Assembly: GCA_028875345.1 (NCBI GenBank)
Contig: JAPPEG010000182.1
Span: 1-38,772 of the forward strand
Direction of reading: 5' to 3'
From: Gemmatimonadota bacterium
Lineage (GTDB): Bacteria > Latescibacterota > UBA2968 > UBA8231
DNA length: 38,772 bases
Made by a program: the position numbers and the translations under genes. The notes below the pieces were generated by a model. It was not told where the DNA came from. It searched no databases and saw nothing but the letters and a program-made list of their open reading frames with translations. The stretch's first letter is position 1; each line of letters starts with the position of its first letter. Positions 18,761 to 35,208 of the stretch are shown in pieces.

Positions 18761-18786
18761 GCGGGATCCTTCTCATTCTTCCCCCA

Positions 18787-19914: not shown

Positions 19915-21305
19915 CCGGCCCTGCGCTGCAAGGCGCGCTGCTGGTAGAGGAAGTCGAAGAGGTTGCCCTCGTGCGGCTGATCCCAGGCGATTTCGTGGGT
20001 GGGGATCGGGCCGAGGTTGAGGCGTTCGATGTGGGGTGCGGCGAGCAGTTGACGCGTTAGGCTCTCGTCTTCGGTGAGGGCGGTAGCTACCAGCGTCGGG
20101 CCGATGCGCGCGACCATTTCTTCTTGTGGGACTTCGACGACTGAGGCAAAGGGGAAGAGGTATTCGGTATTGGCTAACGGGTGTTGCCAGTCGGAGGCGT
20201 GGATCAAGGTTGGGTTGAGGAAGGTGCAGCCGCCAGTCTCAGCGATGCGTTCGCCTTGGCCTCTGGCTGTGTCTGTTGTGTCGCCGAGTTGGGCGTCGAT
20301 TAGGGATGAGAACTGGTGCGCTACTGCGGGGTTGGAGAAGGCGGCGATTTGGGCTTGGGGGTCGTCGAGGGGGCGGGCCTGGATTTGGCCCAGGCGCTCG
20401 CCGAGGGCGGCGGCGATTGCGCGGCCGTGGGCGGGCACCCAGATGCCGGAGGCGTTGAGGCAGGAGCGGCCTCCGTTGGAAGCGATTGAGGCGACCATGA
20501 GGTCGAGGTATTGCTCCCACTGGTCGATTTTGTCCGCGCCGATGATGATCTTGCTACGCCCTGGTCCGTGTAGTTGGATGCGGGAGTCGTCGCGCCAAGG
20601 AGCGACCGTGGGACCGCCGCCGAATAGCAGCGAGCGGCCGCAGCGGAGCAGGATCTCGGTGCTGCCGCCGTGGTCGGTCGGGTAGTAGCTCAGGGCTTGG
20701 GGTGGACAGCCGGCTGCGATCAGGGATTGGGCGATGCGGTAGGGCGTCCACGGCTCTTCGCGTCCCGGCTTGAGCACCAGCGGGGTCTTGAGTGGGATGG
20801 CTGGCAGCCACAGCGCGTGGACGCCAGGCGAGTTGCTCGGCAGGACGCAGCCGAGGGCTTGGGCGTGGGACGCGAAGTGGAGCGGACTTGGGCCGTCGTC
20901 GAGGACGGTTAGGTCCAGGCCTCGGGTCAGACCGCTGAGCACGGCGGACATTTCAATGCCGACGCGGTGGATTTTGTCCATGTTGGCGCGGGCCAGCGAC
21001 TGTGGTAGGCCGGTGGTGGCCGAGACTTGCGCGACGTAGTCGTCCGGGGTTTGGCCGTCGTCGCCTAAAGGGAGTTCGGCGCGTAAGAAGAGGTCAGCGG
21101 CTCGTTGGCAGATGGCGACCAATTCGGCGACGGTGAGGGCTTGCAGGGCTTGGCGGTTGCGCTCTTGGGCGGCTAAGTCGCGGGAGATTAGGCCGCGGTT
21201 GGCTTGGCTGACTTGGGCCAGGGGTTGGCCGGTGGCGATGTGGGCGACGGTGAGGCGGTCGAGGCTGGTATAGGGTTGGCCGGCGCGGAGGATAGGTAGG
21301 TGCAT
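19911..21305 (-). CDS. Aldehyde dehydrogenase family protein, likely CoA-acylating type
   Basis: A 464-residue aldehyde dehydrogenase. The oxyanion Asn157 lies in LPSNSPGVH, LVLKPGR (176-182) contributes to cofactor binding, and the nucleophile is Cys282 in SNGGRSCLNASG. The usual general-base Glu motif (E-L-G-G-K) is replaced by SKIIIG at 251-256. Loss of this Glu is characteristic of CoA-acylating dehydrogenases (AdhE, PduP, LuxC-like), which make acyl-CoA from aldehyde or the reverse. Coupled translation with the iron alcohol dehydrogenase supports a two-step acyl-CoA/alcohol interconversion. The C-terminal half (LNLGPIPTHEIAWDQPHEGN) is unusual, so substrate is open. The ATG at 21305 faces the divergent TonB receptor gene. 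Confidence 0.85.
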   Translation of the reverse strand: MHLPILRAGQPYTSLDRLTVAHIATGQPLAQVSQANRGLISRDLAAQERNRQALQALTVAELVAICQRAADLFLRAELPLGDDGQTPDDYVAQVSATTGLPQSLARANMDKIHRVGIEMSAVLSGLTRGLDLTVLDDGPSPLHFASHAQALGCVLPSNSPGVHALWLPAIPLKTPLVLKPGREEPWTPYRIAQSLIAAGCPPQALSYYPTDHGGSTEILLRCGRSLLFGGGPTVAPWRDDSRIQLHGPGRSKIIIGADKIDQWEQYLDLMVASIASNGGRSCLNASGIWVPAHGRAIAAALGERLGQIQARPLDDPQAQIAAFSNPAVAHQFSSLIDAQLGDTTDTARGQGERIAETGGCTFLNPTLIHASDWQHPLANTEYLFPFASVVEVPQEEMVARIGPTLVATALTEDESLTRQLLAAPHIERLNLGPIPTHEIAWDQPHEGNLFDFLYQQRALQRRAG

Positions 21306-21400
21306 GAGTTTGGATTTTGGGTTAGAGTTAGAGTAAGCACTTGCAATCTATAATCTATAAATCTGTATCGCAGAACAAAACTCGGGGGCTTGGTTGATTT
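21306..21400. promoter_or_regulatory. Divergent promoter region, aldehyde dehydrogenase / TonB receptor
   Basis: The 95-bp gap contains a perfect TATAAT at 21349-21354 within a short tandem run of aatctata-like units, on the receptor strand. No convincing -35 sits 17 nt upstream, and the receptor ATG lacks a strong ribosome binding site. Divergent layout suggests shared control of both transcripts. Confidence 0.4.
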
Positions 21401-23536
21401 ATGTTTAATCTGCGTTTCAGGTTAGTCGTCTTGGCTGCCATCTGCATCGCGAATCAACTGTCGCTGTCTTTTCTAGACCGTGCGGCGGCGCAGGATGATT
21501 CTGACAGGATTTATCAATTTGAAGAAACTGTTGTCACTGCGGAGCGGATGGAAAACTCGCTTTTTGAATCAACTGCTGCTGTGTCGGTGCGTACTAGCGC
21601 CGAGATGGAGTTCCTGCCACTGAAAAATCTCGCCGCTGCGCTGGAGACTTTTCCGGGAATTTCGTTTTTGCACCGCGATGGACTGGGGCGCGATCCGTTG
21701 GCAACGCTGCGCGGTTTTTACGGTGGCGGGGAAGCAGAATATCTGCTGGTTATGATCGATGGAAGGCCGATCAATGAGCTTGAGAAAGGGTTGATGAATT
21801 GGAGTGCCATTCCACTTGCAAGTATTAGCTCGATTGAATTCCTGCGCGGAGGCGCGTCTTCGCTGTACGGCGATGCTGCGATTGGTGGCGTTGTCAACGT
21901 TGTTACTTCTGGCGAGTATGGACCTCTAACGCAGATTTCAGCAACGGGTGGCAACTTTGGGTCACTTGGCGCACAGGCGCGAACAAGTGGCCTTTGGCAT
22001 GGGCGAGAGTATGTGGCATTTGGATCGGGGGAGCGGTACGCCGAGTTCCGAGACCATGCGGACCGCGCGGCAGAAAACCTTGGGGGTTCGCTCACACTGC
22101 GGCAAAAACCCAACGGTTCGCTTGCGGTTTCAACAACGCATCACTTTCAGCAATTTGATGAACCCGGCCCGTTGACTGGCGCTGAGTTAGATGACGACCG
22201 CTCCCAATCGACACCGTTCTATAAGTTTGACCATACTGCCGACCGGACGCATCGGGCGGCGATAACAGGTGATTACAATCTTCGCGACAGGGCCAAATTC
22301 TCCGGTGCGGTTTCCGGCGAGATCCGCGATTCCGATGCGGTCAGGACATTGCAACTGAGCCCCGAATTTGCCGACACCAAGAATCGTTTACTTACGGCTT
22401 CGCGCCTCACAAGTTCGCTGCAACTGACGCTCGACCAACTAGGACTTCTTCACAAAGATCGCCTCAGTCTTGGCATTGACGCGGGCGTGCATTCGCTCTC
22501 GTCCGAGTATTATCAGTTCCTTCTTGGTGGACTGGCTGACTATAGTGAGATGAGTGCCGTTGAGCGCGGCGCATTGGAGGAAAAGGGCACTAGCACTCGG
22601 CGTTCGGCGGCGGGGTTCCTGCAGTACGAACTTACGCCGATGCAAACACTGCGCGTCGTCTTGGGGGTGCGCGCCGATATAATTCGCGATCAGTTTACCC
22701 CTAAATCGCCGAGTGAAGGGGAGGAACAATCAACGACCCATGCGGAGTTGAGTCCAAAAGCGGGAGCGAATTTTCGTTATGTAAAAACAGAGCGGCATGT
22801 CGGCAATCTGTACGCCAACGTTGCGCGATCGTTCAAAGCTCCAACACTGGATCAGCTCTATGACCAGCGTTCAATTATCTTTGAGATCTCGCCGAATCCT
22901 CCGTTTAAAGTCTTACTTTCAAGTGGTGATTTAAATCCGCAGTTTGGGACATCTATTGAGGTGGGAGGTTATCATCGCGCGGTGCTGTTCCCGAACCTCC
23001 TGTACGGCGAACTTTCGCTCGCGGCTTATACCATGGACATGAAGAATGAGTTGGATTTTGATCTTCAGCAGCTCAAGTACGTGAATATCAGCAAAAGCCG
23101 CCATCAGGGGATTGAAACGGGTCTCAGGTTTAGGGTGAAGTCGAACCTGAATTTGTTTCTCAATTACACCCACCAATCCGCTAAGTCTCAAATTGGCGAG
23201 TATGCCGGCAAATTCTTGAAGGCAATCCCACGCGATGTGATCTACGGCGGCGTCAACGCTGCACATAAATCCGGCTTGGGTGGGAGTATCGTCGTTAAAT
23301 CTGCGAACCGCATTTTTCTTGATGACGCGAATGCGATTACCCTGCCCAACTATAGCACTGTGGATGTTCGGCTCAAATATCAAGTGGGTCTAGTTGCCGC
23401 TACGCTTGACGTATTCAATATCTTTGATCAATCCTATAGTACAACGGGGTATCCCGACGCATCGGGAAGTGGACATAGCTACTTCTACCCAGCCGCTGGA
23501 CGGCATGCGCACTTTGGTTTTCAACTTCAGCATTAG
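21401..23536 (+). CDS. TonB-dependent receptor (BtuB/CirA-like)
   Basis: A 711-residue outer-membrane receptor. The signal peptide runs to about residue 31 (RAAAQDD), followed by the TonB-box-like region EETVVTAERMENS. The plug domain has LLVMIDGRPINELEKG and IEFLRGGASSLYGDAAIGGVVNVVT, the pattern of vitamin B12/colicin I-type receptors rather than the siderophore class at 8419. The barrel ends FGFQLQH. Its base composition is less GC-biased than the flanking genes. It is divergent from the dehydrogenase pair. Ligand unknown. Confidence 0.93.
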   Translation: MFNLRFRLVVLAAICIANQLSLSFLDRAAAQDDSDRIYQFEETVVTAERMENSLFESTAAVSVRTSAEMEFLPLKNLAAALETFPGISFLHRDGLGRDPLATLRGFYGGGEAEYLLVMIDGRPINELEKGLMNWSAIPLASISSIEFLRGGASSLYGDAAIGGVVNVVTSGEYGPLTQISATGGNFGSLGAQARTSGLWHGREYVAFGSGERYAEFRDHADRAAENLGGSLTLRQKPNGSLAVSTTHHFQQFDEPGPLTGAELDDDRSQSTPFYKFDHTADRTHRAAITGDYNLRDRAKFSGAVSGEIRDSDAVRTLQLSPEFADTKNRLLTASRLTSSLQLTLDQLGLLHKDRLSLGIDAGVHSLSSEYYQFLLGGLADYSEMSAVERGALEEKGTSTRRSAAGFLQYELTPMQTLRVVLGVRADIIRDQFTPKSPSEGEEQSTTHAELSPKAGANFRYVKTERHVGNLYANVARSFKAPTLDQLYDQRSIIFEISPNPPFKVLLSSGDLNPQFGTSIEVGGYHRAVLFPNLLYGELSLAAYTMDMKNELDFDLQQLKYVNISKSRHQGIETGLRFRVKSNLNLFLNYTHQSAKSQIGEYAGKFLKAIPRDVIYGGVNAAHKSGLGGSIVVKSANRIFLDDANAITLPNYSTVDVRLKYQVGLVAATLDVFNIFDQSYSTTGYPDASGSGHSYFYPAAGRHAHFGFQLQH

Positions 23537-23612
23537 CTGGATTGATCGGAATAGGGTTGTCGCTGTGCCTTGTATGGAACTCTCAAAGCCTGTGGTTATT
23601 TCGAGCCGAGTA

Positions 23613-24005
23613 TCACCGTGCAGCCCCACCGACGGCGGCACCGAGAGCTTGATCGAAGGTCTGGATCTCGCTTACGCCGCGTCGGCGACAGCTAGCTAAG
23701 TGGCAGAGGTCTCGGGCACCCAAGGTGGGATGCTGTGCGTGGAGTTGCCGCGCTAGGGTGACATCCTTCTGTTCCAGCGGCCACACCTCCACGCGGGACT
23801 TGGTGATTAGCGCTAGGGCGGCATCGAGCGTCTGCACTCGCGCAACCGGCAGGTAGGCGTGGGCCAATTCCTGCAGCACCTCTGCCGATGTGCACAGAGG
23901 CGTGCGGGATCGGGTGCATTCGGCGAAGAATTCCCGCGCTGGATCGCGGAGGGGATGCGGCCGGCCCACCGCGTACATGAAGACGTTGGTATCGACAAAG
24001 ATCAC
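23613..24005 (-). CDS. VapC-type PIN-domain toxin
   Basis: A 130-residue PIN-domain ribonuclease. The acidic metal-binding residues are visible: Asp5 (MIFVDTNVFMY), Glu46 in AEVLQELAHAY, Asp99 in LGARDLCHLAS and Asp118 in IQTFDQAL. VapC toxins cleave tRNA or rRNA and are held inactive by the antitoxin from the upstream gene. It starts with GTG at 24005, overlapping the antitoxin TGA as GTGA, the usual coupled arrangement. It ends 76 nt from the convergent TonB receptor gene. Confidence 0.9.
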   Translation of the reverse strand: MIFVDTNVFMYAVGRPHPLRDPAREFFAECTRSRTPLCTSAEVLQELAHAYLPVARVQTLDAALALITKSRVEVWPLEQKDVTLARQLHAQHPTLGARDLCHLASCRRRGVSEIQTFDQALGAAVGGAAR

Positions 24006-24277
24006 GTCTTGGCTGCGTCCCGTTTACGCGAATCGTCAATGACGGCTAAGTGCTCTTGCCAATCCGGTTCTCGACCAGGACCTTCCAATGCGTCGCAGGC
24101 ACTGAAGAATTTTTCAAGGTCGGCTGGGGATTCGAAGGGGTGGGATTGCTGCTGTTCTTCGAGCCGTCGGCGGGCGGCGACCCTGAGCCACGCGCTCAAG
24201 GTCATGCCCTCGCTCTGCGCCTGATGGACGAAGCGATCACGGTCCTCGTCGGGGATCACTAACTGAACTCTGGCCAC
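24002..24277 (-). CDS. VapB-like ribbon-helix-helix antitoxin
   Basis: A 91-residue antitoxin. The N-terminus VQLVIPDEDRDRFVHQAQSE and GMTLSAWLRVAARRRLEE form a ribbon-helix-helix DNA-binding fold at about residues 3-43. The acidic C-terminal part (FESPADLEKFFSACDAL...PDWQEHL) resembles the toxin-wrapping tail of VapB proteins paired with PIN toxins. AAGGAG lies upstream of the ATG. An inverted repeat at 24304-24322 just upstream could be its autoregulatory operator. Confidence 0.87.
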   Translation of the reverse strand: MARVQLVIPDEDRDRFVHQAQSEGMTLSAWLRVAARRRLEEQQQSHPFESPADLEKFFSACDALEGPGREPDWQEHLAVIDDSRKRDAAKT

Positions 24278-24303
24278 TTTTATCTACTCCTTTTATATAA
24301 GCG

Positions 24304-24322
24304 TGTGTATAGACAATACACA
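24304..24322. promoter_or_regulatory. Inverted repeat, possible VapB operator
   Basis: Seven-base arms tgtgtat (24304-24310) and atacaca (24316-24322) are perfectly complementary with a 5-nt centre. The repeat lies 26 nt upstream of vapB next to a TATATA sequence, where a ribbon-helix-helix dimer pair would repress the toxin-antitoxin promoter. It also lies upstream of the divergent HAD gene, which could share this control. Confidence 0.45.
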
Positions 24323-24347
24323 TACTTATGCTGAAGGTCAACCGGAT

Positions 24348-25073
24348 ATGGAAACCATGGAAAAGTCAACGGACCGAGCTGTTATATTCGATCTCTACGA
24401 GACGCTTATTACTGAAAATCACCCAGAATGGCATGTTGAGGTGCCGACGCCGGGCGAGCGGCTCGGTTTAGCTCAGGAGGATTGTGAACGCGAGTGGTCT
24501 GCTCGCTACCAAGCGCGTATGACTGGGAAGTTGCGCCACTACAGTGACGTGTTGAGGGAGATGTGCTGTGCTTGCCAGATTGTGCCGCCGGAAGAAGAGA
24601 TTGCCTTGATGCAGGCGGAGAGATTGGCTGCGAAGGCGCGGCCGTTTGAACGAATGGATCCGCTGGTTGCTGAAATGCTACAGACGTTAAAAGGGACAGG
24701 CTATCGCATTGGACTGATCACAAATTGCGCCTATGATGAAATTGCGGCATGGGACTCTTCCAAGCTTGCAGGTCTGGTTGACGTGCCGATTTTCTCATGT
24801 GTGGAGGGGTTGATTAAACCGGAGCCTGCAATTTACGAACTGGCGTGTGACAGGTTGGGCGTCGATGTCAGTGATGCGGTTTTCGTGGGGGACGGTGGGA
24901 GAGATGAGTTGCGTGGTGCCGATGCAGCGGGATTGAAGGCGATTTGGGCGACGTGGTTCATTGAGACGTGGCCTTGGGATTGGGTGGGAAAGGTAGCCAA
25001 GACATCAGATGCGTTTCTTCGCTGTCGAAGAATTTGTGATTTGCCTGCTCTTGTAGATGACATGTACAGTTGA
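24348..25073 (+). CDS. HAD-superfamily hydrolase (haloacid dehalogenase/phosphatase-like)
   Basis: A 241-residue HAD hydrolase if started at the ATG at 24348; an ATG at 24357 and an upstream one at 24303 are alternatives. Motif I is VIFDLYETLI with nucleophile Asp15; the second aspartate of DxD is Tyr, as in haloacid-dehalogenase-type and many FDLYGTL hydrolases. Motif II is GLITNC, motif III Lys in GLIKPEPAIYELA, motif IV VFVGDGGRDELRGA. It lies between VapBC and HicBA on the opposite strand, sharing a 70-bp divergent region with vapB. Substrate unknown. Confidence 0.87.
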   Translation: METMEKSTDRAVIFDLYETLITENHPEWHVEVPTPGERLGLAQEDCEREWSARYQARMTGKLRHYSDVLREMCCACQIVPPEEEIALMQAERLAAKARPFERMDPLVAEMLQTLKGTGYRIGLITNCAYDEIAAWDSSKLAGLVDVPIFSCVEGLIKPEPAIYELACDRLGVDVSDAVFVGDGGRDELRGADAAGLKAIWATWFIETWPWDWVGKVAKTSDAFLRCRRICDLPALVDDMYS

Positions 25074-25132
25074 TAGGGTGCTGTTGAAGTGTTGCGGGTG
25101 ATCAGTAATCTGGAATTGCCGTCAGGAGCAAC

Positions 25133-25309
25133 TTACGGCGTCAGCATTTTGATAATGCGCTTTGCCAAATGATCATTAATCTCCCTGTGTCGAGGAACAG
25201 GCTGGGAGAGCTTAGTATGCGGATTTTGATACCAGTCGTGCTTGGCTCCGTGCCGAATGAGGATACAACCCATCTTTTCTAAAGTGCGGATTAAGTCTCG
25301 TCGCTTCAT
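25133..25309 (-). CDS. HicA-type toxin
   Basis: A 58-residue protein of the HicA family, small double-stranded-RNA-binding-fold mRNA nucleases. It shows the pattern MKRRDLIRTLEKMGCILIRHGAKHDWYQN, with the catalytic histidine probably in the RHGAKHD stretch, and ends with DHLAKRIIKML. The ATG at 25309 overlaps the HicB stop (ATGA). A longer frame to 25342 would add residues overlapping HicB and is not preferred. Confidence 0.88.
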   Translation of the reverse strand: MKRRDLIRTLEKMGCILIRHGAKHDWYQNPHTKLSQPVPRHREINDHLAKRIIKMLTP

Positions 25310-25497
25310 CCGATTTCCAACACAGCAGCCTCTCGCACACAAGGAATATGACCGCCTGTGAGTTCGTCATAAATATCTCTCAGGTTTTCTCTCAGGTCTT
25401 CTTGGGTTTCGCCTTGGGTCCAATAGTCGGGATAGCGCTCTAGATAGCCAAGCCACATATCGCCATCCTGCCAGTAGATGTACTTTTGATAATCCAT
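25306..25497 (-). CDS. HicB-type antitoxin
   Basis: A 63-residue HicB-like antitoxin with the N-terminal partial RNase H-like domain: YIYWQDGDMWLGYLERYPDYWTQGETQEDLRENLRDIYDEL. It lacks the C-terminal DNA-binding domain of longer HicB proteins, so autoregulation may not follow the standard scheme. It is encoded upstream of HicA, the reverse of the E. coli order, with translational coupling. AGAGAGGT lies upstream of the ATG. Confidence 0.87.
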   Translation of the reverse strand: MDYQKYIYWQDGDMWLGYLERYPDYWTQGETQEDLRENLRDIYDELTGGHIPCVREAAVLEIG

Positions 25498-25539: not shown

Positions 25540-26616
25540 TCAATACACCCCCACAACCACAGACTCCTGCAACTCCGTCAGCAGCCGCAGGTCTCTGACC
25601 CCATCCCAAGGATACGCCTCAATCGGCTCGGCACGCTCAGCCTCGTCGCGTTCGAGGAAGCGGGGCATGAAAAATTCCTTGGTCAGGGTGGTGAGCATGA
25701 CTTGGCCGGTCTCGCCGTAGCCGACCTTGCGCGAGGGATCTTTGGGATCAACCAGTTCGATGACGGCGCGTGGTTGCGGCGGGTAGTAAGTGATAGCGTA
25801 TTCGTCGGCCGGGTCGAAGGGCTTGGGGCAGGCCAAGCCCATCAGGGTGTTGCCGTAGGTGGGGACAAAGGCGAGGCCGGGCACCAACTCCTCGCGGGCG
25901 AAGCGGTGGAACTGGGCGTTCATTTCCGTGCCGCCGCAGAAGATGCCCTTAATGCCGAGCTTGGGCAGGGAGACTTTTCCGCAGAGGGATTCGAGGAGGC
26001 GGGGCGTGGTGAAGACGCACTGCACGTTGTCGTGGGCCTTGAGGATTTTGAGCGCCTGCTCGATGACGTGGGCTTTGTAGTCTTCCAACTCGCGCATCTT
26101 GCCGGCGCGGATGAGTTCGTTGACCCAGCGCGGGTCGAGATCCACCATAAAGCACAAGCCGCCGCGTAGCTGGGCGAGATACTCGATGGCGAGGCGTAGG
26201 CGGCGCGGCCCCGAAGGCCCCAGCATCAGCCAGTCGGCTCCCTTGGGAAAATCCTCTTCGGACAGGCTCTCGCTGTAGAGCGCGTAGTCGGCGTGGAAGT
26301 CGCGGATGTTGATGCGGTATTTGGGCAAGCCGGTCGAGCCACCGGTCTCAAAGACGTAGATCGGCTCGTCGGCATAGGCTTTGGGTACCCACTGGCGCAC
26401 TGGGCCGCCGCGCAGCCACTCGTCCTCAAAGTGGCCGAGCAGGGCCAAGTCGTCGTAGGAGCGAATTTTCTCGCGCGGGTCGAAGTCGAGTTGTTGCGCG
26501 TAGGAGAGCCAAAACGGGCAGCCGGTCTCGGGGCTGAAGTGCCACTCGACGATGGCGCGGACGTGAGCGTCGAGGTCGGCGCGGGCTGCGGCGATCTTGT
26601 CTGGTGAGACGCTCAT
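25540..26616 (-). CDS. Single-domain adenylate-forming enzyme (EhpF-like)
   Basis: A 358-residue ANL-superfamily protein lacking the C-terminal lid domain of CoA ligases. The phosphate loop is TGGSTGLPK at 91-99; an adenine-pocket-like VPTYGNTLMG is at 251-260 and GETG at 301-304, and the chain ends soon after R341-D. This compact form resembles EhpF, an adenylating enzyme of phenazine (griseoluteic acid) biosynthesis, so a tailoring reaction that adenylates a carboxylate is plausible. The open frame reaches 26877, but the true ATG at 26616 overlaps the TGA of the propeller gene (ATGA). It is the last gene of its operon. Confidence 0.75.
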   Translation of the reverse strand: MSVSPDKIAAARADLDAHVRAIVEWHFSPETGCPFWLSYAQQLDFDPREKIRSYDDLALLGHFEDEWLRGGPVRQWVPKAYADEPIYVFETGGSTGLPKYRINIRDFHADYALYSESLSEEDFPKGADWLMLGPSGPRRLRLAIEYLAQLRGGLCFMVDLDPRWVNELIRAGKMRELEDYKAHVIEQALKILKAHDNVQCVFTTPRLLESLCGKVSLPKLGIKGIFCGGTEMNAQFHRFAREELVPGLAFVPTYGNTLMGLACPKPFDPADEYAITYYPPQPRAVIELVDPKDPSRKVGYGETGQVMLTTLTKEFFMPRFLERDEAERAEPIEAYPWDGVRDLRLLTELQESVVVGVY

Positions 26617-28034
26617 TGGCTTTCTTCCGCGATGGCGAAGAGGGTGTTGCGCGAGGCGATGTACAGGACGCCGTCGTGGGCGACTGGAGTGGTGTACACG
26701 GCGCTGCCCAGATTGGTTTCGTGGAGTAATTCGAGGGTTGTGCTGGCCTTGAGCACATCGACATCGCCGTCCTCGTCGCCGATATAGACCTTGCCGTCGG
26801 CGACAAAGGGCGAGCCCCAGATCGCGGCGAAGGTGTCGTGGGTCCAGTGGTGGGTGCCGGTCTTGGCGTCGAGGCAATAGACGAAGCCGCTCAGGTCGGA
26901 GGCGTAGAGCAGGCCGTCGGCAATGGCGACGGTGGAGATGGTGCGGTTGTAGTTTTTGTCGCCGAAGTGCCAGATTGCGCCTGTCTCGGTGATGTCGCCG
27001 GTGCCGCTGGCGTCAATGGCCCACAGGTGACCCTCACCTTCGCCGTGCTCGGGGTCTTGGCCGACGCCGATATAGACCACGCCGTCGTGGAAGACGGGCG
27101 TGGAGACGAGGTTATTGCGGGTGCCGCGGCCGCCCAATTCCCAGACCGAATCCTTGGGGTTGCAGTCGAATTTCCAGATGAGTTCGCCGGTGTCGGGCGC
27201 GAGGGCATAGACCCAGCCGTCGCCGCCGGGGAAGATCACCTGCTTGCGACCCCCCGCCTCGCCGTAGGCGGGGTTGGCCCATTGGCCGTGTAGAATCTGG
27301 TCGCCGGGTAGATCGCTGTCCCAAAGGAGGTCGCCGGTCTGCAGGTCGAGGGCGATGAAGCTGGGGGCAAAGGGGGCCGGGATGTGGATGTGGCCCTCGT
27401 CCACGCCGTTGCTGGTCAGGGCGAAGAGGCGACCGTCCACACCTATGGGCGAGCTGGTGGCGAGGTTGTGGGGAAAGACGTCCAACTCGGCGATCATGTC
27501 GAATTTCCAGATGAGATCCGCGTTGGTGGGCGCGGTGGCGGTCTCATCGGCGATGGGGCCGTCGTTCTCGCCGTCGCGGAAGCCCTCGGTGTCGAGGCAG
27601 ACGACTTCGGCGCGGTTGGAGACGTAGTAGAGGCGGTCGCCTTCGATATAAGGAGTGGAGCAGACGCCCTGCTGCGGCCAGTCGTTGACGCGGCCGGCCG
27701 GCAACTTGGGATGGGCGATTTGCCAGAGGAAGGTGCCGTCCTCTAAGGAGAAGGCCATCACCACGCCGCGATCGCCTTTGTGGTTGGGGTCGCGCTCGGC
27801 TTGGTTGTTGGTGCCGACGAAAATTTTGTCGCCGGCGATCAGGGGGCCGGCGTAGGTCTGCGAGCCGAGCGTGGCGCTCCACTTGACGTTTGTGCCGGTC
27901 TCGGTGTCCCAAGTGGTGGGCAGGTTTTGCTCGTCCGAGACTTGGTTGCGCCCCAGCGAGCCGCCCCACATGGCGGTTTGGGCATTGGCGGAAGCGGCTA
28001 GGGCGAGGATGAGGCTGCAAATAGTTAGAGTCAT
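26613..28034 (-). CDS. Secreted PQQ-like beta-propeller protein E
   Basis: A 473-residue secreted propeller. The signal peptide (MTLTICSLILALAASANA) precedes QTAMWGGSLGRNQVSDEQNLP, a variant of the N-terminal motif seen in the other propellers. Blades include CLDTEGF, ALDLQTGDLLWDSDL, ALAPDTGELIWKF and CLDAKTGTHHWTHD. I use the ATG at 28034, which overlaps the upstream TAA as TAATG, rather than a TTG two codons earlier. It is coupled at its 3' end to the adenylate-forming enzyme. Whether PQQ is bound is unknown. Confidence 0.87.
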   Translation of the reverse strand: MTLTICSLILALAASANAQTAMWGGSLGRNQVSDEQNLPTTWDTETGTNVKWSATLGSQTYAGPLIAGDKIFVGTNNQAERDPNHKGDRGVVMAFSLEDGTFLWQIAHPKLPAGRVNDWPQQGVCSTPYIEGDRLYYVSNRAEVVCLDTEGFRDGENDGPIADETATAPTNADLIWKFDMIAELDVFPHNLATSSPIGVDGRLFALTSNGVDEGHIHIPAPFAPSFIALDLQTGDLLWDSDLPGDQILHGQWANPAYGEAGGRKQVIFPGGDGWVYALAPDTGELIWKFDCNPKDSVWELGGRGTRNNLVSTPVFHDGVVYIGVGQDPEHGEGEGHLWAIDASGTGDITETGAIWHFGDKNYNRTISTVAIADGLLYASDLSGFVYCLDAKTGTHHWTHDTFAAIWGSPFVADGKVYIGDEDGDVDVLKASTTLELLHETNLGSAVYTTPVAHDGVLYIASRNTLFAIAEESQ

Positions 28035-30175
28035 TACCAAACTTTCAGGTTGTCGTAGTAGATTTCAGCGGGAGAATAGCCGTAGAGGCCGGGGCTGCCG
28101 CTGCGGTTGGGCAGGGGATCGACTGCTTGGATGCTCCACCTAGCTGGCTCTGGCTCGTCGCGGGGCCAGACTTTGCCGCGGATGTGGGCCGTATCGCCCT
28201 CGATTTCCACCTGCATCTTCATGGTGTACCAAACGCCAGTTTCCCAGGCGAAGGGCACGGTTTTGGCCATCCGCAGTTCGGCGGCCCAAGTGCGGATCTG
28301 CAACTGTTGATGATAGCCCATCAGGTCGAGGGTGTAGCGATGGGAAATTAGGCCCATGTCGGGGACGGCGCGGCGCTTTTTGGTGCCGAGCAGGTCGGCT
28401 TGGATGGTGTAGCCGGTCATGGCGGGCGCGCCGATGTAGGTGTTGGCGCGATGCAGGCCGCGGGCTGCGGGCGGCTTGACCAGTACCTTGTTGCCTTCCA
28501 TTTCGCGCACCTTGAACTTGGTGCCTGTACCGATCCAAGCTGGTGAGGAGTCAACGGCCAATCCCTCGAAGTCTTCGCTGTAAGTCGGCGGGGGCAGCAC
28601 GGCAATGCGTGCCTCGGCGGTTAGTTCGCCAGCGCTAGCGACGATTTTGCCGCCGCTGGGTGCGTCTGCGAGGACGAGCGTATTGCCGTCGAGTTGGCCG
28701 ATCGGACCGGAGAGTGACCATTCGGCTGCGACCGGGCCGATGAGGCGGCCTTGCGCGTCGAAGGCTCGGGCGCGGAACGGCACGCTGGCTCCAGGCTGAG
28801 CTACTACTTCGGCGGGGATGATTTGCAGGTGCGCCGGTGTTGCGTCTGGGGCAGCTTGCTCTCGTGGGTAGTTGGCGGTGGTTGCTGAGACCTTGAACTG
28901 CGCCTCTGGGTCGCCGAGGCAGTAAACACCCGCTTCGGTGGAAAGGTAGATGCGGCCGTAGGCCACGGCTGGCGAGCCGAATAGTTCGGCTGGGCGTCCG
29001 TCGGGCATGGCAATCTCGGCGAGGTCGAGCGTCTCGGCGGCGTCGGAACCGGGGGCGACGATGGCGAAGCGGCCGTTGACCTCTGGCGCGTAGAGTCGGC
29101 CGTCGGCCAGCACGGGCGATCCCTTGCCGACAGTGCCGATGTTGTGGATCCAGTGGACTTGGCCCGTCTCGGCGTCGAGCGCGTGGATGTTGGCCGAGTT
29201 GTCGGTGATGTACAAGCGGCCGTCGTGGACGACCGGACTGGTGTAGCCGGCGAAGACGCCGTCGTAGCGCCAGACCTCGTTGCCAGTGGCGTCGATGCAC
29301 ACGACGCGGCCGAGGGCCGTGTTGTCGAGGTTTTCCTCGCTGTGGGCTGCGTACACCTTGTCGCCAGCGACGACGACCGAAGAGTTGATGCCGCGACGGC
29401 TGAGCTTGAAGCCCCACACGGTCTCGCCGGTGCGGATTTTCATGGCGTAGATGGAGCCGTCGGCGTTGCCGCCGATGAGCAAGCGGACGCCGTTGATGGT
29501 GGCGACGACGGGCACGGAGTACGTGGTGTCGAGCGGCCGACCTCCCGGCGTGGCGATCCAGACGACTTCGCCGCTGCGCTTGTCAAAGGCGAAGTAGCGG
29601 TGGCGGCCCGGAGTGTGGCTGCCCCAATTGGAGCTGAGATAGCTGATGATGACGAGGTCTTCATCGACGACAGGCGTGTGGACGCGCCCACCGTAGCCGG
29701 AGATGCGCCCGAATTCCTCGGTCAGCGAGCGCGACCATACTACCTTGCCGTCGCGGTCAAGGCAAAGGAACAGCCCACTGACCGTGTGGGCATAGATGTA
29801 GCCGGTCTCTGGGTCTCCAGCGAGGCTGGCCCAGCCGACGCGGTTGAAGGGGATGGTGGTGTGGAAGATGTTGTAGGCGTGTTCCCAGAGCAGGGTGCCG
29901 TCTTGGGCGTCAAAGGCGGCGACAACGCCCTCATGTTCGATGCCTTCACCGCGGCGACCGATGACAAAGACTCGTCCGTCGAGGACGATGGGAGTCGAGC
30001 GGCCAGTAAATTCGGCGTGCCAGATGGGCGACCAGGATGCGACGAGGCCGGTTTCCTCGGAGACGCCGTTTTGCGCAGGGCCACGCCAGGAGGGCCAGTC
30101 GGCTGAGTAGGCGCTGGAAGCGGCGAGCAGGAGGCCGAACAAGGCACAGGGAAGTTGCAGGCGGAGGTTGGACAC
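28034..30175 (-). CDS. Secreted PQQ-like beta-propeller with Ig-like and concanavalin-like C-terminal domains
   Basis: A 713-residue secreted multidomain protein. The signal peptide (LPCALFGLLLAASSAYSA) is followed by DWPSWRGPAQNGVSEETGLV, an eight-blade-type PQQ-like propeller to about residue 420, an Ig-like segment (GASVPFRARAFDAQGRLIGP...) and a C-terminal jelly-roll resembling LamG/concanavalin domains (YSEDFEGLAV to IYYDNLKVW), probably carbohydrate- or polymer-binding. The start is GTG at 30175, preceded by AAGGAC; the frame extends to 30238, but the GTG gives a proper signal peptide. It leads the three-gene minus-strand operon, divergent from the DUF362 gene. Confidence 0.87.
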   Translation of the reverse strand: MSNLRLQLPCALFGLLLAASSAYSADWPSWRGPAQNGVSEETGLVASWSPIWHAEFTGRSTPIVLDGRVFVIGRRGEGIEHEGVVAAFDAQDGTLLWEHAYNIFHTTIPFNRVGWASLAGDPETGYIYAHTVSGLFLCLDRDGKVVWSRSLTEEFGRISGYGGRVHTPVVDEDLVIISYLSSNWGSHTPGRHRYFAFDKRSGEVVWIATPGGRPLDTTYSVPVVATINGVRLLIGGNADGSIYAMKIRTGETVWGFKLSRRGINSSVVVAGDKVYAAHSEENLDNTALGRVVCIDATGNEVWRYDGVFAGYTSPVVHDGRLYITDNSANIHALDAETGQVHWIHNIGTVGKGSPVLADGRLYAPEVNGRFAIVAPGSDAAETLDLAEIAMPDGRPAELFGSPAVAYGRIYLSTEAGVYCLGDPEAQFKVSATTANYPREQAAPDATPAHLQIIPAEVVAQPGASVPFRARAFDAQGRLIGPVAAEWSLSGPIGQLDGNTLVLADAPSGGKIVASAGELTAEARIAVLPPPTYSEDFEGLAVDSSPAWIGTGTKFKVREMEGNKVLVKPPAARGLHRANTYIGAPAMTGYTIQADLLGTKKRRAVPDMGLISHRYTLDLMGYHQQLQIRTWAAELRMAKTVPFAWETGVWYTMKMQVEIEGDTAHIRGKVWPRDEPEPARWSIQAVDPLPNRSGSPGLYGYSPAEIYYDNLKVW

Positions 30176-30300: not shown

Positions 30301-31512
30301 ATGAGCAATCAGAAAGATTACACCGTCCGTGCGACCCACTGTAGCCACCAAGCGTCGCTCGATGAGATCTACGACAGGCTGGTGGCAATCACTGCGCCGT
30401 TGAGCCGGTCGTGGGCCAAGATCGAGAAGGCGCGGCGGATCGGTATCAAGATCAATATGCAGATGCGCACCAATAATATCCGCCGGATCGGCGGGCGGCG
30501 GCAGGAATTGGTAGATGACGACGTGATGCGGGCGGTGCTACGGCTGTTGCGGGAGCGCAGCGACGCGGAGATTTTCGCGTTCGACACCAGCGCTGCGCCG
30601 CCGGGCGAGCGTCCGGGTGATGATTTCAATGCTAGGCCGATCTTGGAGGAATTCGGCGTCGAATACGTCGAGGCTGGCGATCCGCCCTTTGCGCGCTACA
30701 AGGTGCCCGGCGGTGGGATCATGTTCTCCGAGTACCAGCTTTCCGCGGCCTTGGGCGAGGCCGACGCCTTTGTCTCACTGGCCAAGATGAAAAATCACGG
30801 TTTTATGGGCATTACTCTGTGCCTGAAAAATCTCTTCGGTCTGCCGCCGGTCCCGCCGCACGGCCGCTTGCGCACGTACTTCCACCACGTCATCCGCCTC
30901 TCGTATGTCCTGCCCGACTTAGGACTGATTGCCCAGCCCTGTCTCAACATCATCGACGGGCTGACTGGTCAGGCGCGCATGGAGTGGGGCGGCGAGGGCC
31001 GGATTGGCGACTGCTTGGTCGCCGGTGACCACGTCATCGCCACTGACGCCTGCGGCTCGTACCTGATGGGCACTGATCCCCGGCTCGATTGGCCGACGCC
31101 GCCCTTCCGCCGCGATCGTAGCCCGGTGGCAGTGGCCGCCGAGCACGGCTTTGGGACGGTGGACTTGGACGAGATCGACTTTGCCATGGAGGGGCTGACG
31201 CCGCCGGTAGCTGAGTTCGACTCGGCGGAAGCTGATCCGCCGGAGCAGATCGCGCGGTTGCGGCAGACCGCCAGCGAGCAAGCGCTTTTTTATCGCGACC
31301 ACAGCGAGCGGATTTGGGACGCCCACGCTGGCAAGTACGTCTTTTTGCAGGACGGCGAGGTGATTTGGAGTGGACTCAAGCCGGAGGAAGCCGGGGCCGT
31401 GCAGCACGTCGCCGCGGGTAAGAAGGATCAGGCGGTTTGGCTCAAGCTAGCCGATCCAGCAGAGCGCGAGGGCGAGCGGATGGCGGTGTACGAGAAGATC
31501 TTGGCGGCTTAG
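30301..31512 (+). CDS. DUF362 domain protein with DUF5678-like C-terminus
   Basis: A 403-residue protein. The core has the DUF362 pattern: IGIKINMQMRT, a VSLAKMKNHGFMGITLCLKNLFG segment with conserved Lys and Asn, and NIIDGLTGQARMEWGG...VAGDHVIATDACGSYLMG. No ferredoxin cysteines are fused, unlike many DUF362 proteins. The tail ERIWDAHAGKYVFLQDGEVIWSG looks like DUF5678, a small beta domain. DUF362 proteins are of unknown function. The ATG is preceded by GGAGGAGCT. It heads the plus-strand cluster. Confidence 0.87.
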   Translation: MSNQKDYTVRATHCSHQASLDEIYDRLVAITAPLSRSWAKIEKARRIGIKINMQMRTNNIRRIGGRRQELVDDDVMRAVLRLLRERSDAEIFAFDTSAAPPGERPGDDFNARPILEEFGVEYVEAGDPPFARYKVPGGGIMFSEYQLSAALGEADAFVSLAKMKNHGFMGITLCLKNLFGLPPVPPHGRLRTYFHHVIRLSYVLPDLGLIAQPCLNIIDGLTGQARMEWGGEGRIGDCLVAGDHVIATDACGSYLMGTDPRLDWPTPPFRRDRSPVAVAAEHGFGTVDLDEIDFAMEGLTPPVAEFDSAEADPPEQIARLRQTASEQALFYRDHSERIWDAHAGKYVFLQDGEVIWSGLKPEEAGAVQHVAAGKKDQAVWLKLADPAEREGERMAVYEKILAA

Positions 31513-31571
31513 AAGGGACGGGTCGTCCTTCATTCGCCGCTTAATGATCACCCGAATAGGAGCCACTATCC

Positions 31572-32327
31572 ATGACCGAAGTAGAGCGATATTTGTTTGA
31601 TCTCCAGGGTTATATGATCGTCGAGGACGTGTTGGATGCACAAGCCGTCGCCGAGTTGAATCGGCTGATTGACGCTCAAGAGATGGGCGCGGATGTCGAG
31701 CAGGCGCAAGGGCGACTGCACACCGGCGGGTTTTTGACGTGGGGCCAGCCCTTTGTCGATTTGCTGGACCACGAGCGCATTATGCCGCTGCTCAAGGTGA
31801 TTTTGGGCGACGGCTTCCGGCTCGATCACTACTATGCGATCTATTTGGAGTCGGGTGCCGAGCGGCTCGGGTTGCACGGGGGCAACACACCCTACGATCC
31901 GCCGGAGTACTACCACTTCCGCAATGGACAGATGTACAATGGGCTGACGGTCATCTCTTGGAACTTGGCCGACACTGGGCCGGTGCATGGCGGTTTTTGC
32001 TGCATTCCAGGCAGCCACAAGGTCAATTATCCCTGTCCGCAGGAAATCCGCGAGGCCCATGTCGAGGCTGGGTGCGTAGTGGTGCCGGAGGCAAAGGCCG
32101 GGTCGGTGGTGATTTTTACCGAGGCCCTCACGCACGGTACGGCACCGTGGCAGGCCGCGCATCAGCGACGCTCGCTCCTGTTCAAATACAGTCCAGGACA
32201 GCAGTCGTGGTCCAAACACCACATTGCGCCGCCGGAGGGCGTGGCCTTGACCGAGCGGCAGGCGCTGCTTTTTGAGCCGCCGTATTTCCATGCGCGAGCC
32301 TCGCTTTTCGAAGAGGTGCAAGCATAA
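31572..32327 (+). CDS. Phytanoyl-CoA dioxygenase-like protein with HxG in place of HxD
   Basis: A 251-residue double-stranded beta-helix protein of the PhyH family, Fe(II)/2-oxoglutarate oxygenases. Matches include RLDHYYAIYLESG, NGLTVISWNLADTGPVHGGFCCIPGSHK (123-150), a distal His188 (TEALTHGTAPW) and Arg199/Arg200 for 2-oxoglutarate. Where the HxD motif is expected, the sequence is LHGG, giving His102-x-Gly104 with no carboxylate. HxG/HxA is the arrangement of SyrB2-type halogenases, but it may also be a family variant using another ligand. AGGAG lies upstream of the ATG. Confidence 0.85.
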   Translation: MTEVERYLFDLQGYMIVEDVLDAQAVAELNRLIDAQEMGADVEQAQGRLHTGGFLTWGQPFVDLLDHERIMPLLKVILGDGFRLDHYYAIYLESGAERLGLHGGNTPYDPPEYYHFRNGQMYNGLTVISWNLADTGPVHGGFCCIPGSHKVNYPCPQEIREAHVEAGCVVVPEAKAGSVVIFTEALTHGTAPWQAAHQRRSLLFKYSPGQQSWSKHHIAPPEGVALTERQALLFEPPYFHARASLFEEVQA

Positions 32328-32346
32328 AGCGACTGGAGACTTGAGT

Positions 32347-33096
32347 ATGGAAGCGCTGTTTCGCCCCTTTGTGTTTGGAGCCGATGAACGGGCAAGCCTC
32401 GACAGCGCCGGGCACTTTGCGTCGCCGGGCGTCCTGACTGACGCGGCTTGCGGTCAGTTGACTGCGGCGCTGGCGCGCATTCAGGCGCTGCCATGGGATG
32501 ACGAGGAATATCGTCCCTCGCGCTTTGCCGCTGAATTTGACGCCTATTTGGAGAGCTTGATTGGGCATCCGCAACTGCTGGACTTGGTGCGTCGCGTGCT
32601 GGGGCCAGAGATCCGCTACGATCACTGCGTGGCGCTGAATCGCGAAGGGGGCAATCCGGGGAGCAATTGGCACAGCCACGAGTACGCCGACGACGATCCG
32701 GCGCTGGGTTTTGTGCGGGTGTTTTTTTACGTCAATGGCTTTGCAGCCGACGACGGTGGGTTGAAGGTGGTGCCGGGGAGCCATTTGTATCGAGATCCAG
32801 GTATTAACGCAGAATCAGATGCCGAGTTGGCGCAGGGGTGGATGGCGGGGAAGGCGCATCCGGTTAGCGGTCAACCGCTCGCAATCGAGGAGTTGTCGGT
32901 GCCAAAGGGAACGGTGGTGTTGATGTGGACGCATGCGGCGCATGGGGTCACTCCGCGCAAGGAAGAAAGCGACACGCGGTGGTGCGTGGTGTATGCGTAT
33001 CGCAATCCGGGGCGGGAGTCGCGAGCGCGATGGCTTAGTCCGAGTTTTGAAAAGAAGCAGATCAAAGGCGCAGAAGAATTGATGAGTTTGTACTAG
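32347..33096 (+). CDS. Phytanoyl-CoA dioxygenase-like protein with HSHE motif
   Basis: A 249-residue PhyH-family protein. It has NWHSHEYADDDPALGF (107-122) at the first metal site, GGLKVVPGSHLYRDPG (137-152), and MWTHAAHGVTPR (193-204) with the distal His and 2-oxoglutarate Arg. The first site lacks the normal HxD; His109, His111 and Glu112 are the available ligands. The start at 32347 follows GGAG; the frame runs back to 32272 but that overlaps the previous gene. It is 13 nt upstream of the enolase-superfamily gene, so likely one operon. Confidence 0.85.
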   Translation: MEALFRPFVFGADERASLDSAGHFASPGVLTDAACGQLTAALARIQALPWDDEEYRPSRFAAEFDAYLESLIGHPQLLDLVRRVLGPEIRYDHCVALNREGGNPGSNWHSHEYADDDPALGFVRVFFYVNGFAADDGGLKVVPGSHLYRDPGINAESDAELAQGWMAGKAHPVSGQPLAIEELSVPKGTVVLMWTHAAHGVTPRKEESDTRWCVVYAYRNPGRESRARWLSPSFEKKQIKGAEELMSLY

Positions 33097-33109
33097 AAAG
33101 GAAAGCAAA

Positions 33110-34225
33110 ATGAAAATCACAGAGATTCGGACGTTTTTGGTGGGTAGGTTTTTGTTGGTGCGGGTCTATACGGACGAAGGAATCGTCGGCAATGGAGAGG
33201 CTGGGTTGTGGGCGCATCACGGGGTGGTGAAAGAGGCGCTGGGGGAGTTGAGTGATTACTACGTGGGCAAGGATCCGCTCCGCATCGAGCATCACTATCA
33301 GGTGGTGTCGCGGTCGGCGCACTTCATGGGCGCGGCGATGAGCGCGGCGATGAGCGCGATCGACATTGCGCTGTGGGACATATTCGGCAAGGCGGTGGGT
33401 TTGCCCGTGTACCAGTTGTTGGGCGGCAAGTGCCGCGACAAGGTGAAAGTGTACGAAAACGTCGGCGGACAGACGCCCGAGGAAGTGCGGGAGAGTGCGC
33501 AGGCGCGGGTGGAGCAGGGGTTTACGTCGTTTCGGATGGGGCCGTTTGTCAGCGGGTTTGAGCAGCGCACTGCTACTGCCAACATTTCGACGGCTGTGGA
33601 ATTGGTGGCTGCGGCGCGGGAGGCGCTTGGGGACGAGATGGATTTGGGGTTGGAGATCCACCGGAACTTGCGGCCGGAGGAGGCGATTGCGCTGGCCACG
33701 GAGTTGACGCCCTTTAAGATCCTGTACTACGAGGACCCGTTGCCGCCGCAGAGCTTTGAAGCCCTCGAGTACGTCGCCCAGAACATCAACATCCCAATCG
33801 CCACGGGCGAGCGGTGCTACAACCCTTTCCAGTTTAAGGATTTGATCGACCGCCAGATCGTCAGCTTTATTCGGCCGGACGTGTCGTTGGCGGGCGGATT
33901 TACGCAGGTGAAGAAAATTGCCGCGCTGGCCGAGATGGCTTTCGTCGGGGTGTTCCCTCATCTGATGGGCAGTCCGGTCAACAACGCGGCTTTCGCGCAG
34001 CTAGCCGCGGCCATTCCCAACTACACGCACACCGAGCACAATGCCCTTAACGGGCCGATGGCCGAGATCGTCGATGAACAGCTACAAGTCGAGGGCGGCT
34101 ATCGGCTGCTGACAGATCGGCCGGGGATTGGGGTTGAAATAGTCGAGGACGCGCTGGCGAAATACCCGTACGAGCGCTGGGCGATTAAGGGCAGTTTCCA
34201 CGCCGACGGCTCGGTGGCGCATTAA
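33110..34225 (+). CDS. Enolase-superfamily sugar-acid dehydratase (mandelate racemase/muconate lactonizing type)
   Basis: A 371-residue cytosolic enzyme of the D-mannonate/D-galactonate dehydratase-like branch. The N-terminal lid includes TDEGIVGNGEAGLWAHHGVV; the barrel has LEIHRNLRPEEAIALA (181-196), YYEDPLPPQ with Glu208, ATGERCYNP with Glu234 and FPHLMGSP with His284. The first metal ligand, normally Asp, appears to be Glu182, with His184 after it as in galactonate/mannonate dehydratases. Such enzymes dehydrate aldonic acids to 2-keto-3-deoxy acids. The following DapA-family gene would supply an aldolase. AAAGGAA upstream supports the ATG. Confidence 0.9.
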   Translation: MKITEIRTFLVGRFLLVRVYTDEGIVGNGEAGLWAHHGVVKEALGELSDYYVGKDPLRIEHHYQVVSRSAHFMGAAMSAAMSAIDIALWDIFGKAVGLPVYQLLGGKCRDKVKVYENVGGQTPEEVRESAQARVEQGFTSFRMGPFVSGFEQRTATANISTAVELVAAAREALGDEMDLGLEIHRNLRPEEAIALATELTPFKILYYEDPLPPQSFEALEYVAQNINIPIATGERCYNPFQFKDLIDRQIVSFIRPDVSLAGGFTQVKKIAALAEMAFVGVFPHLMGSPVNNAAFAQLAAAIPNYTHTEHNALNGPMAEIVDEQLQVEGGYRLLTDRPGIGVEIVEDALAKYPYERWAIKGSFHADGSVAH

Positions 34226-34248
34226 TCACTACGACGCGGGAGAATGTG

Positions 34249-35160
34249 ATGATTGACCATGCCTTGCGGGATCAGCTAAAGGATGTCCACGCTTATGCGT
34301 TGACTATTTATCAGGTCGATGATCTCTATGCACTCGATTTGGACGGGTTTGCGCGCAATATAGCGTGGGCCGCTGACCGGGGAGTGCGGGTTTTTGTGGT
34401 GGCTGGCGGAACTGGTGAAAACGATGCGTTGGCTCCGCCTGAGCGCTTAACGCTCGCCGAGTGTGCGCTGGCGACGGTGGGCGAGCGGGCGCTGGTGGTG
34501 CCGACGTTGCCCGGCAATTTGGGCGAGGCCGCGGACTTGGCACCGCGCTACGAGGCGTTGGGGTTGCGCGTGGCGCTGGCGATGGCACCCTATACGCGCC
34601 ATCAGGTGCCCGAAGATCCCGAAGGGGTGTATCAATACTACGAGGCGCTGGGGACGCGGTCGGGACTGGCGCTGATGCCCTACAATACGCAGGGCTGGTC
34701 GGCCGAACTGTTCGAGCGGCTGGCTGCGGTGCCGCAGATCGCCGCGATTAAAGATCCCTGCGTTGAGCCGCACAACCTCTTCCGCGCCATCAAGCGGCTC
34801 GGCGACCGCTTCGTCTGGATCGGCAACAAGCGCCACGACCCAGGTGTGTTGCACTTCCGCTTTCAGGCTGGGATCGAGGGTTTTACCGCTGGTTTTGTCA
34901 ACTTCGCTCCGCAGCTAGAGCTGGCGCTTTTCGCTGCTGCGCAACAGCAGGATTGGCCGCAGATGATCGAGTTGCAGGAGCAGTTGGCCCCCTTGGAGCG
35001 GTTGCGCTCGCGTTTTGACGACGCCGGTATGCTCAAGACGACGATGGAGTTGATGGGGCTGGCCGGGGGTGCGGTGCGCCCACCTCGGATTAACGTGCCG
35101 CCGGCGGGACGCGAGGCGATCCAACAGGAGTTGCAGCGCTTGGGGATCTTGGACGCATAA
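34249..35160 (+). CDS. DapA-family class I aldolase or dehydratase
   Basis: A 303-residue (beta/alpha)8 barrel of the dihydrodipicolinate synthase/N-acetylneuraminate lyase family. It carries AGGTGENDAL in the GTGE loop position, a catalytic Tyr in LMPYNTQGW and the Schiff-base Lys168 in AAIKDPC. The substrate loop differs from lysine-pathway DapA, so a 2-keto-3-deoxy sugar acid aldolase or 5-dehydro-4-deoxyglucarate dehydratase-like role is likelier, fitting the dehydratase encoded 23 nt upstream. GGGAG precedes adjacent GTG (34246) and ATG (34249) starts; spacing favours the ATG. Confidence 0.9.
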   Translation: MIDHALRDQLKDVHAYALTIYQVDDLYALDLDGFARNIAWAADRGVRVFVVAGGTGENDALAPPERLTLAECALATVGERALVVPTLPGNLGEAADLAPRYEALGLRVALAMAPYTRHQVPEDPEGVYQYYEALGTRSGLALMPYNTQGWSAELFERLAAVPQIAAIKDPCVEPHNLFRAIKRLGDRFVWIGNKRHDPGVLHFRFQAGIEGFTAGFVNFAPQLELALFAAAQQQDWPQMIELQEQLAPLERLRSRFDDAGMLKTTMELMGLAGGAVRPPRINVPPAGREAIQQELQRLGILDA

Positions 35161-35208
35161 CATCTGCGTTTACTGCGGATATAGTAATCACAAGAGAATC
35201 CGCAGATG
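35161..35208. terminator. Overlapping inverted repeats, possible terminator or attenuator
   Basis: Two mutually exclusive hairpins share one right arm: catctgcg (35161-35168) pairs with cgcagatg (35201-35208), and ctgcggat (35173-35180) pairs with atccgcag (35198-35205). They begin directly after the aldolase stop, at the largest gap (148 bp) in the plus-strand cluster. There is no T-tract, so Rho-independent termination is uncertain. Confidence 0.35.

Follow-up and report, generated by a model that had tools for sequence, protein, structure and literature searches.

Secreted propellers and an EhpF-like adenylate-forming enzyme in a conserved gene cluster of several phyla, probably for reduction of an aromatic acid

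We describe here a gene cluster in contig JAPPEG010000182.1, a 38,772-nucleotide stretch of DNA from a member of the Latescibacterota (the window), in which two secreted beta-propeller proteins, PQQ1 and PQQ2, are encoded together with ANL2, an adenylate-forming enzyme related to EhpF. The three genes form one end of a single conserved cluster of about 14 genes that recurs in several phyla, and orthologues of PQQ2 and ANL2 accompany each other almost perfectly in two separate samples of genomes. We favor, with a probability of about 65%, the interpretation that the cluster encodes a multi-phylum and apparently undescribed pathway that activates an aromatic acid and reduces it to the aldehyde and the alcohol. 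The cluster probably reduces, and perhaps halogenates, the acid, and works with the secreted propellers on the product.

One cluster, divided in the window

PQQ1 (28034–30175), PQQ2 (26613–28034) and ANL2 (25540–26616) are all intact and lie on the minus strand with overlapping stop and start codons. PQQ1 starts with a GTG codon at 30175 and its stop codon ends at 28034, where the junction with PQQ2 reads TAATG, and the PQQ2/ANL2 junction at 26613 reads ATGA; these overlaps make translational coupling of the three genes plausible. Both propellers have Sec-type leaders, assigned by eye (MSNLRLQLPCALFGLLLAASSAYS preceding ADWPSWRGP in PQQ1 and MTLTICSLILALAASANA preceding QTAMWG in PQQ2), in agreement with a first-pass annotation of this DNA that had reported signal-peptide propellers joined to the gene for an ANL-type enzyme. 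The same annotation called the 358-residue enzyme an EhpF-like single-domain form, and this label is right because EhpF (3l2k/3hgu) is its sole significant relative in a phmmer search of the PDB (E=4e-44) and matches at full length, with residues 9–358 of ANL2 aligned to 14–366 of EhpF and the C-terminal ANL domain absent. ANL2 scores slightly under the cut-off of the Pfam AMP-binding family (29 bits against 29.9), and its adenylation motifs (the P-loop TGGSTGxPK, TYGNT and PRFLERDE) are invariant in 13 orthologues.

ANL2 orthologues with strong E-values were gathered in related genomes (34 of 60) and their neighborhoods inspected, and a species-level genome collection was scanned for ANL2 relatives (at least 570), with neighborhoods taken from the best 80. 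These 80 are from Latescibacterota, Poribacteria, Calditrichota/KSB1, Acidobacteriota, Verrucomicrobiota and Planctomycetota. The contiguous order in relatives is PQQ1, PQQ2, ANL2, an aldehyde dehydrogenase-like enzyme (ALDH), an iron-containing alcohol dehydrogenase (FeADH), the propeller PQQd, a radical SAM enzyme (rSAM), the propellers PQQc, PQQb and PQQa, a TonB-dependent receptor (TBDT), a PaaK-like ligase (ANL1), a flavin-dependent halogenase-like enzyme (FADhal), a sodium:solute symporter (SSF) and a glycosyltransferase (GT). The neighborhoods of the best 80 repeat it as PQQ1-PQQ2-ANL2-ALDH-FeADH-PQQd-rSAM-PQQc-TBDT-(ANL1)-FADhal-SSF-GT, with additional open reading frames in Poribacteria and local rearrangements elsewhere. 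The cluster thus holds together as a unit in Latescibacterota, Poribacteria, Acidobacteriota, Planctomycetota and Verrucomicrobiota, Calditrichota have partial versions, and it is carried by the complete genome of the acidobacterium Sulfidibacter corallicola (L110/L145/L146). We found no description of it in the open-licence literature. In a tree of ANL2 the sequences group largely by phylum, and the genus of the window falls, with weak support, among the Poribacteria, so horizontal transfer of ANL2 is possible.

In the window the cluster is interrupted by insertions within 16907–25497. The first (16907–18760, plus strand) places an ABC exporter between PQQd and FeADH, and is missing at this position in L034 and present in G007. 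The second (21401–25073, plus strand) contains a second TBDT and a HAD hydrolase, with a HicBA pair on the opposite strand that extends to 25497, and it parts ANL2 from ALDH. In three genomes of the same genus (L032, L033 and L034) ANL2 is followed directly by ALDH and later by PQQd, rSAM and PQQc, and by PQQb where the contig reaches that far; L034 additionally carries FeADH and the first TBDT. The first-pass annotation had counted a second operon and two independent occurrences of propeller and ANL genes within 25 kb, and this count does not hold, because this operon and the 11-gene operon of the annotation are halves of one cluster, which sister species and other phyla keep contiguous. A 9 kb separation in the window and the plus-strand genes between the halves are what independent assembly of two such operons could draw on, and given the single contiguous cluster of L032, L033, L034 and the other phyla we find that origin hardly credible.

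Several neighboring features and cluster variants are worth recording. The HicBA toxin-antitoxin pair lies directly downstream of ANL2 (25133–25497, minus strand), inside the insertion between ANL2 and ALDH, and consists of a HicB-like gene (25306–25497, a weak UPF0150 match) and HicA (25133–25309). Head to head with PQQ1 is a divergent, catabolic-looking run of DUF362, two PhyH genes, MR_MLE, DHDPS and a sulfatase (30301–37186, plus strand), of which DUF362 stays beside PQQ1 in several members of the genus. A reduced acidobacterial form, ANL2-ALDH-GT-ABC/FtsX, has no adjacent PQQ1, PQQ2 or FADhal (L114, L124, L129 and L130), and another acidobacterium (L152:5130–10889) carries a pair of ANL2 paralogues that flank a GT, the second of them followed by ALDH.

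Association of the propellers with ANL2

Where the neighborhood of ANL2 could be tested, in several phyla, PQQ2 precedes it in 55 of 67 loci and ALDH follows it in 52 of 60. Among the 60 relatives, the 34 genomes with ANL2 all carry a PQQ2 orthologue (E<=1e-60) and the 26 without it carry none; four or more of the 34 have the two genes on different contigs. ALDH and FADhal are each found in 32 of the 60; in the relatives that have ANL2 and lack ALDH or FADhal (G002 and G042; G011 and G039) ANL2 sits on a short contig. A second sample, 297 Acidobacteriota genomes drawn evenly, has ANL2 in 59 and PQQ2 in 70, with both in 58, ANL2 only in one, PQQ2 only in 12 and neither in 226 (Fisher p=2e-48, uncorrected for phylogeny), and yet ANL2 and PQQ2 are within 6 kb of each other in merely 13 of the 59. 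ANL2 and ALDH occur together in 57 of these genomes (two with ANL2 only, three with ALDH only, 235 with neither) and within 6 kb in 55 of the 57. For FADhal, counted at ortholog-level scores only, the figures are 42 with both, 17 with ANL2 only and one with FADhal only, and FADhal never occurs without PQQ2 in this sample. In several Acidobacteriota the genes PQQ2-FeADH-PQQd-rSAM-FADhal-SSF-GT make up a module of their own, and ANL2 is found at another site, usually together with ALDH.

Because PQQ2 and ANL2 co-occur even when unlinked, the propellers belong to the pathway as a whole, beyond the neighborhood of ANL2, and these patterns indicate that the first-pass annotation proposed a real functional link when it connected secreted propellers with an ANL enzyme of the cytosol. 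That annotation had allowed that propellers might be so abundant in the genome that adjacency would reflect chance. Propeller matches are indeed present on about eleven contigs of the window genome, but the conservation of gene order across several phyla and the near-perfect co-occurrence of unlinked orthologues contradict this explanation, to which we give next to no weight. The four further ANL loci found in the window genome are all on contigs without propeller matches.

PQQ1 consists of a propeller (residues ~25–420; Pfam PQQ_2, 134 bits) followed by C-terminal beta-rich domains (~445–713) with no confident Pfam family, and PQQ2 is a propeller of 473 residues (PQQ_2, 97 bits). AlphaFold2 models, with mean predicted local distance difference test (pLDDT) values of 88 for PQQ1 and 84 for PQQ2, are both BamB-like beta-propellers; the best Foldseek matches of PQQ1 and the best PDB fold of PQQ2 are BamB. 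This closest fold, and the presence of a TonB-dependent receptor in the same cluster, would suit generic BamB-like assembly factors that help to insert this receptor or other outer-membrane proteins, with the pathway link only indirect. We consider such a role improbable, in that PQQ2 orthologues follow ANL2 genome by genome, PQQ2 exceeds BamB in length by about 100 residues, and the BamB equivalog scores of PQQ1, PQQ2 and PQQd (94, 79 and 151 bits) are below the cut-off of 285. The conservation of PQQ2 is also strong and includes many invariant His, Asp and Glu positions, as expected for a binding or catalytic site. A reading of the propellers as PQQ enzymes was rejected, since the vicinal Cys pair of PQQ-dependent alcohol dehydrogenases is in none of the window propellers; PqqC was not found in eight genomes, in a search whose control was also silent.

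The cluster has up to six secreted BamB-like propellers. PQQa, PQQb and PQQc (10551–14280, minus strand) are closely similar neighbors and apparently tandem duplicates, with several relatives holding one or two. Several Poribacteria (L059:5951–8230, L060:5212–7665, L072:6135–8390 and L084:6112–8388) have an in-frame stop in PQQ1 after the propeller (residues ~440–500), and the C-terminal half in L059 begins anew with a lipoprotein-like leader, suggesting that the two halves can be separate proteins. In a metagenome-assembled genome of the Latescibacterota (L104:8530–9954), PQQ2 has a single in-frame stop at residue 108 and is a pseudogene or an assembly error.

A proposed arylcarboxylate reduction pathway

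Judged by its place in most loci, the direct partner of ANL2 is ALDH (19911–21305; like all cluster genes below, on the minus strand), an EhpG-like member of the aldehyde-dehydrogenase superfamily (Pfam PF00171). The presence of ALDH next to ANL2 suggests that the carboxylate is reduced and not only activated, so that the carboxylate activation of the first-pass annotation is retained as an incomplete part of the reaction, while its link of ANL enzyme to propellers stands. In a tblastn search the window ALDH matches the Pantoea ALDH that is beside EhpF (E=9e-31), and EhpF-like genes on public plasmids are mostly adjoined by a homologue of the window ALDH. Such pairs are seen with Pantoea EhpF (L133), in an E. 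coli phenazine cluster (L135) and in Streptomyces goshikiensis (L134), and a haloarchaeal Halalkalicoccus (L132) has an SSF-ANL-ALDH arrangement; one Streptomyces EhpF-like copy (L131) has no adjacent ALDH. The same gene pair is annotated as ehpF/ehpG in a Proteus phenazine cluster (PMC11278526), and grixazone biosynthesis uses the AMP-binding GriC together with GriD to reduce 3-amino-4-hydroxybenzoate to the corresponding aldehyde (PMC10179220). The nucleophilic Cys282 of ALDH is invariant in 14 of 14 aligned rows, including the homologue at the EhpG position, and the motif that normally bears the Glu base reads xGPGRSK in the alignment. This apparent replacement of the usual Glu would favor acyl reduction over oxidation to the acid. 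We therefore infer that ANL2 and ALDH are a two-component arylcarboxylate reductase, by their match to EhpF/EhpG and by literature analogy to GriC/GriD.

The remaining genes are consistent with further steps on the product. FeADH (18787–19914; Pfam PF00465) is conserved in the cluster, as are PQQc (13033–14280), TBDT1, an outer-membrane receptor (8419–10554), SSF (4172–5668, with its start likely at 5626) and GT, of group 1 (2886–4169). PQQd (15628–16716) has Beta-prop_ACSF4 as its best Pfam match (207.6 bits, above cut-off), and PQQb (11795–13036, with a predicted start) and PQQa (10551–11798) complete the secreted propellers. The HemN/HutW-like rSAM (14294–15631, its start placed by an ATGA overlap) has CxxxCxxC and HemN_C and scores under the HemN/HutW equivalog cut-offs (202 against 325 and 195 against 400 bits). 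ANL1 (7097–8422) is a PaaK-like aryl-CoA ligase with AMP-binding_C_2, similarly under the cut-offs of the PaaK phenylacetate-CoA ligase equivalogs (248 against 700 and 215 against 646 bits). FADhal (5844–7100) matches Pfam Trp_halogenase, and CmlS, its best NCBIfam model, gives 207 bits, far beneath the equivalog cut-off. Nine FADhal orthologues have the motifs GxGxxG (as GGGPxG), WFW(Y/S/F)(I/L)P and FxDPxxSxG, corresponding to the set GxGxxG, WxWxIP and Fx.Px.Sx.G by which flavin-dependent halogenases are recognized (PMC8407142, PMC12871659), and we regard FADhal as a candidate halogenase; no flavin reductase is seen in the cluster.

In several relatives GT is followed by a 4HBT thioesterase and an ABC/FtsX exporter, and the clusters of Planctomycetota, Verrucomicrobiota and Sulfidibacter have beside FADhal a chorismate-lyase-like open reading frame of ~180 residues. 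Pfam is silent on this protein, and its best PDB match is 2nwi (E=0.0034), which we take to be a DUF98 protein; in hhalign the conserved Arg, PLG and GR motifs of UbiC align, at E=0.06 and low probability. Together with the 4HBT thioesterases this gene suggests a substrate of the 4-hydroxybenzoate type. Two other product classes were rejected: a flexirubin or aryl-polyene, prompted by a match of ANL1 to FlxY, as no ketosynthase or acyl carrier protein genes are seen in the cluster, and a phenazine, as no phz genes are seen there.

A plausible scheme follows from these relationships. By homology, ANL2 would adenylate an aromatic carboxylate with ATP and, having no C-terminal ANL domain, hand the acyl-AMP to ALDH, where Cys282 would accept the acyl group and NAD(P)H would reduce it to the aldehyde; this is the chemistry proposed for GriC/GriD and, through homology, for EhpF/EhpG. 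FeADH would turn the aldehyde into the alcohol, ANL1 (with the 4HBT thioesterase in relatives) and FADhal may alter the ring, with a CoA ester or the free acid as substrate, rSAM could perform an additional modification, and GT, ABC and SSF would serve glycosylation and transport. In the least certain step, which would take place outside the cytosol, the finished molecule would be a target of the propellers and the TonB receptor, which would act on it, bind it or re-import it. The sequences themselves show which genes are present, their order and conservation, their co-occurrence and their family relations, and the direction of reaction, halogenation, substrate class and propeller role are proposed from them. 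More tentatively, we suggest that this is a biosynthetic pathway of Latescibacterota, Poribacteria, Acidobacteriota, Planctomycetota and Verrucomicrobiota that makes a (halogenated) hydroxybenzyl-type small molecule, which is secreted and used via dedicated extracytoplasmic propellers as specific receptors, carriers or processing enzymes. The pathway does not appear to be of a standard biosynthetic type.

TonB-dependent receptors, sodium:solute symporters, iron-containing alcohol dehydrogenases and PaaK-like ligases are common in aromatic degradation, and uptake and catabolism must be weighed, with TBDT1 and SSF importing an aromatic compound captured or processed by the propellers, and FeADH, ALDH and the ANL enzymes oxidizing it and loading it onto CoA. 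The catabolic-looking genes just beyond PQQ1 (PhyH, MR_MLE, DHDPS and sulfatase) and the haloarchaeal SSF-ANL-ALDH arrangement fit this explanation. However, ring-cleavage or beta-oxidation genes are not seen in the cluster, the EhpF/EhpG type of ANL2 and ALDH is known from biosynthetic clusters, the usual general base appears to be missing from ALDH, FADhal has halogenase motifs, and GT and ABC genes are conserved, and we consider a catabolic role unlikely.

Several observations weigh against the reductive, biosynthetic interpretation that we prefer. The TBDT, SSF, FeADH and ALDH content is also compatible with uptake and catabolism, and 12 of the Acidobacteriota have PQQ2 and no ANL2. The relatives are mostly metagenome-assembled genomes, and the co-occurrence tests are uncorrected for phylogeny. 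The Latescibacterota cluster lacks the chorismate-lyase-like gene, whose resemblance to UbiC has weak statistical support, and FADhal is missing in 17 of the 59 ANL2-positive Acidobacteriota, so that halogenation would be optional.

The reductive interpretation provides a testable function, two-component arylcarboxylate reduction, for genes listed as 'hypothetical' or 'AMP-binding'. It also connects one metabolic pathway with a particular orthologous family of secreted BamB-like propellers, proteins that usually have no known role. With at least 570 stretches of the species-level collection encoding ANL2 relatives, the pathway would be common in phyla known chiefly through metagenomes. Many of the host genomes are probably those of sponge symbionts, and Sulfidibacter corallicola, a cultured host with a complete genome, makes the pathway approachable.

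Comparison with known systems

The closest parallel is EhpF/EhpG of the D-alanylgriseoluteic acid (phenazine) operon of Pantoea/Enterobacter agglomerans, where EhpF is a full-length homologue of ANL2 and the ALDH directly after it matches the window ALDH. However, phzB/D/E/F/G are not seen in the cluster, which instead has FeADH, rSAM, a halogenase-like enzyme and secreted propellers. GriC and GriD of Streptomyces griseus likewise combine an AMP-binding protein with a reductase that converts an aminohydroxybenzoate to the aldehyde (PMC10179220), although the cluster context differs and the likeness to ANL2 and ALDH is drawn by analogy from the literature. FADhal resembles the CmlS-like flavin-dependent halogenases in its GxGxxG, WxWxIP-type and Fx.Px.Sx.G motifs and in having CmlS as its best NCBIfam model, but is well short of the equivalog cut-off and is a candidate member of this family.

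The propellers share their fold with BamB and the PQQ-like propellers, but differ from BamB in being longer, in the high conservation of polar residues, in the additional C-terminal domains of PQQ1, and in being tied to an enzyme cluster. In animals, AASDH/ACSF4 has an ANL domain fused to a PQQ-like propeller. ANL enzyme and propeller are found together in both systems, and the match of PQQd to the ACSF4 propeller family is above cut-off, whereas in the cluster described here the two are separate proteins, the propellers are secreted, and the ANL enzyme is of another class.

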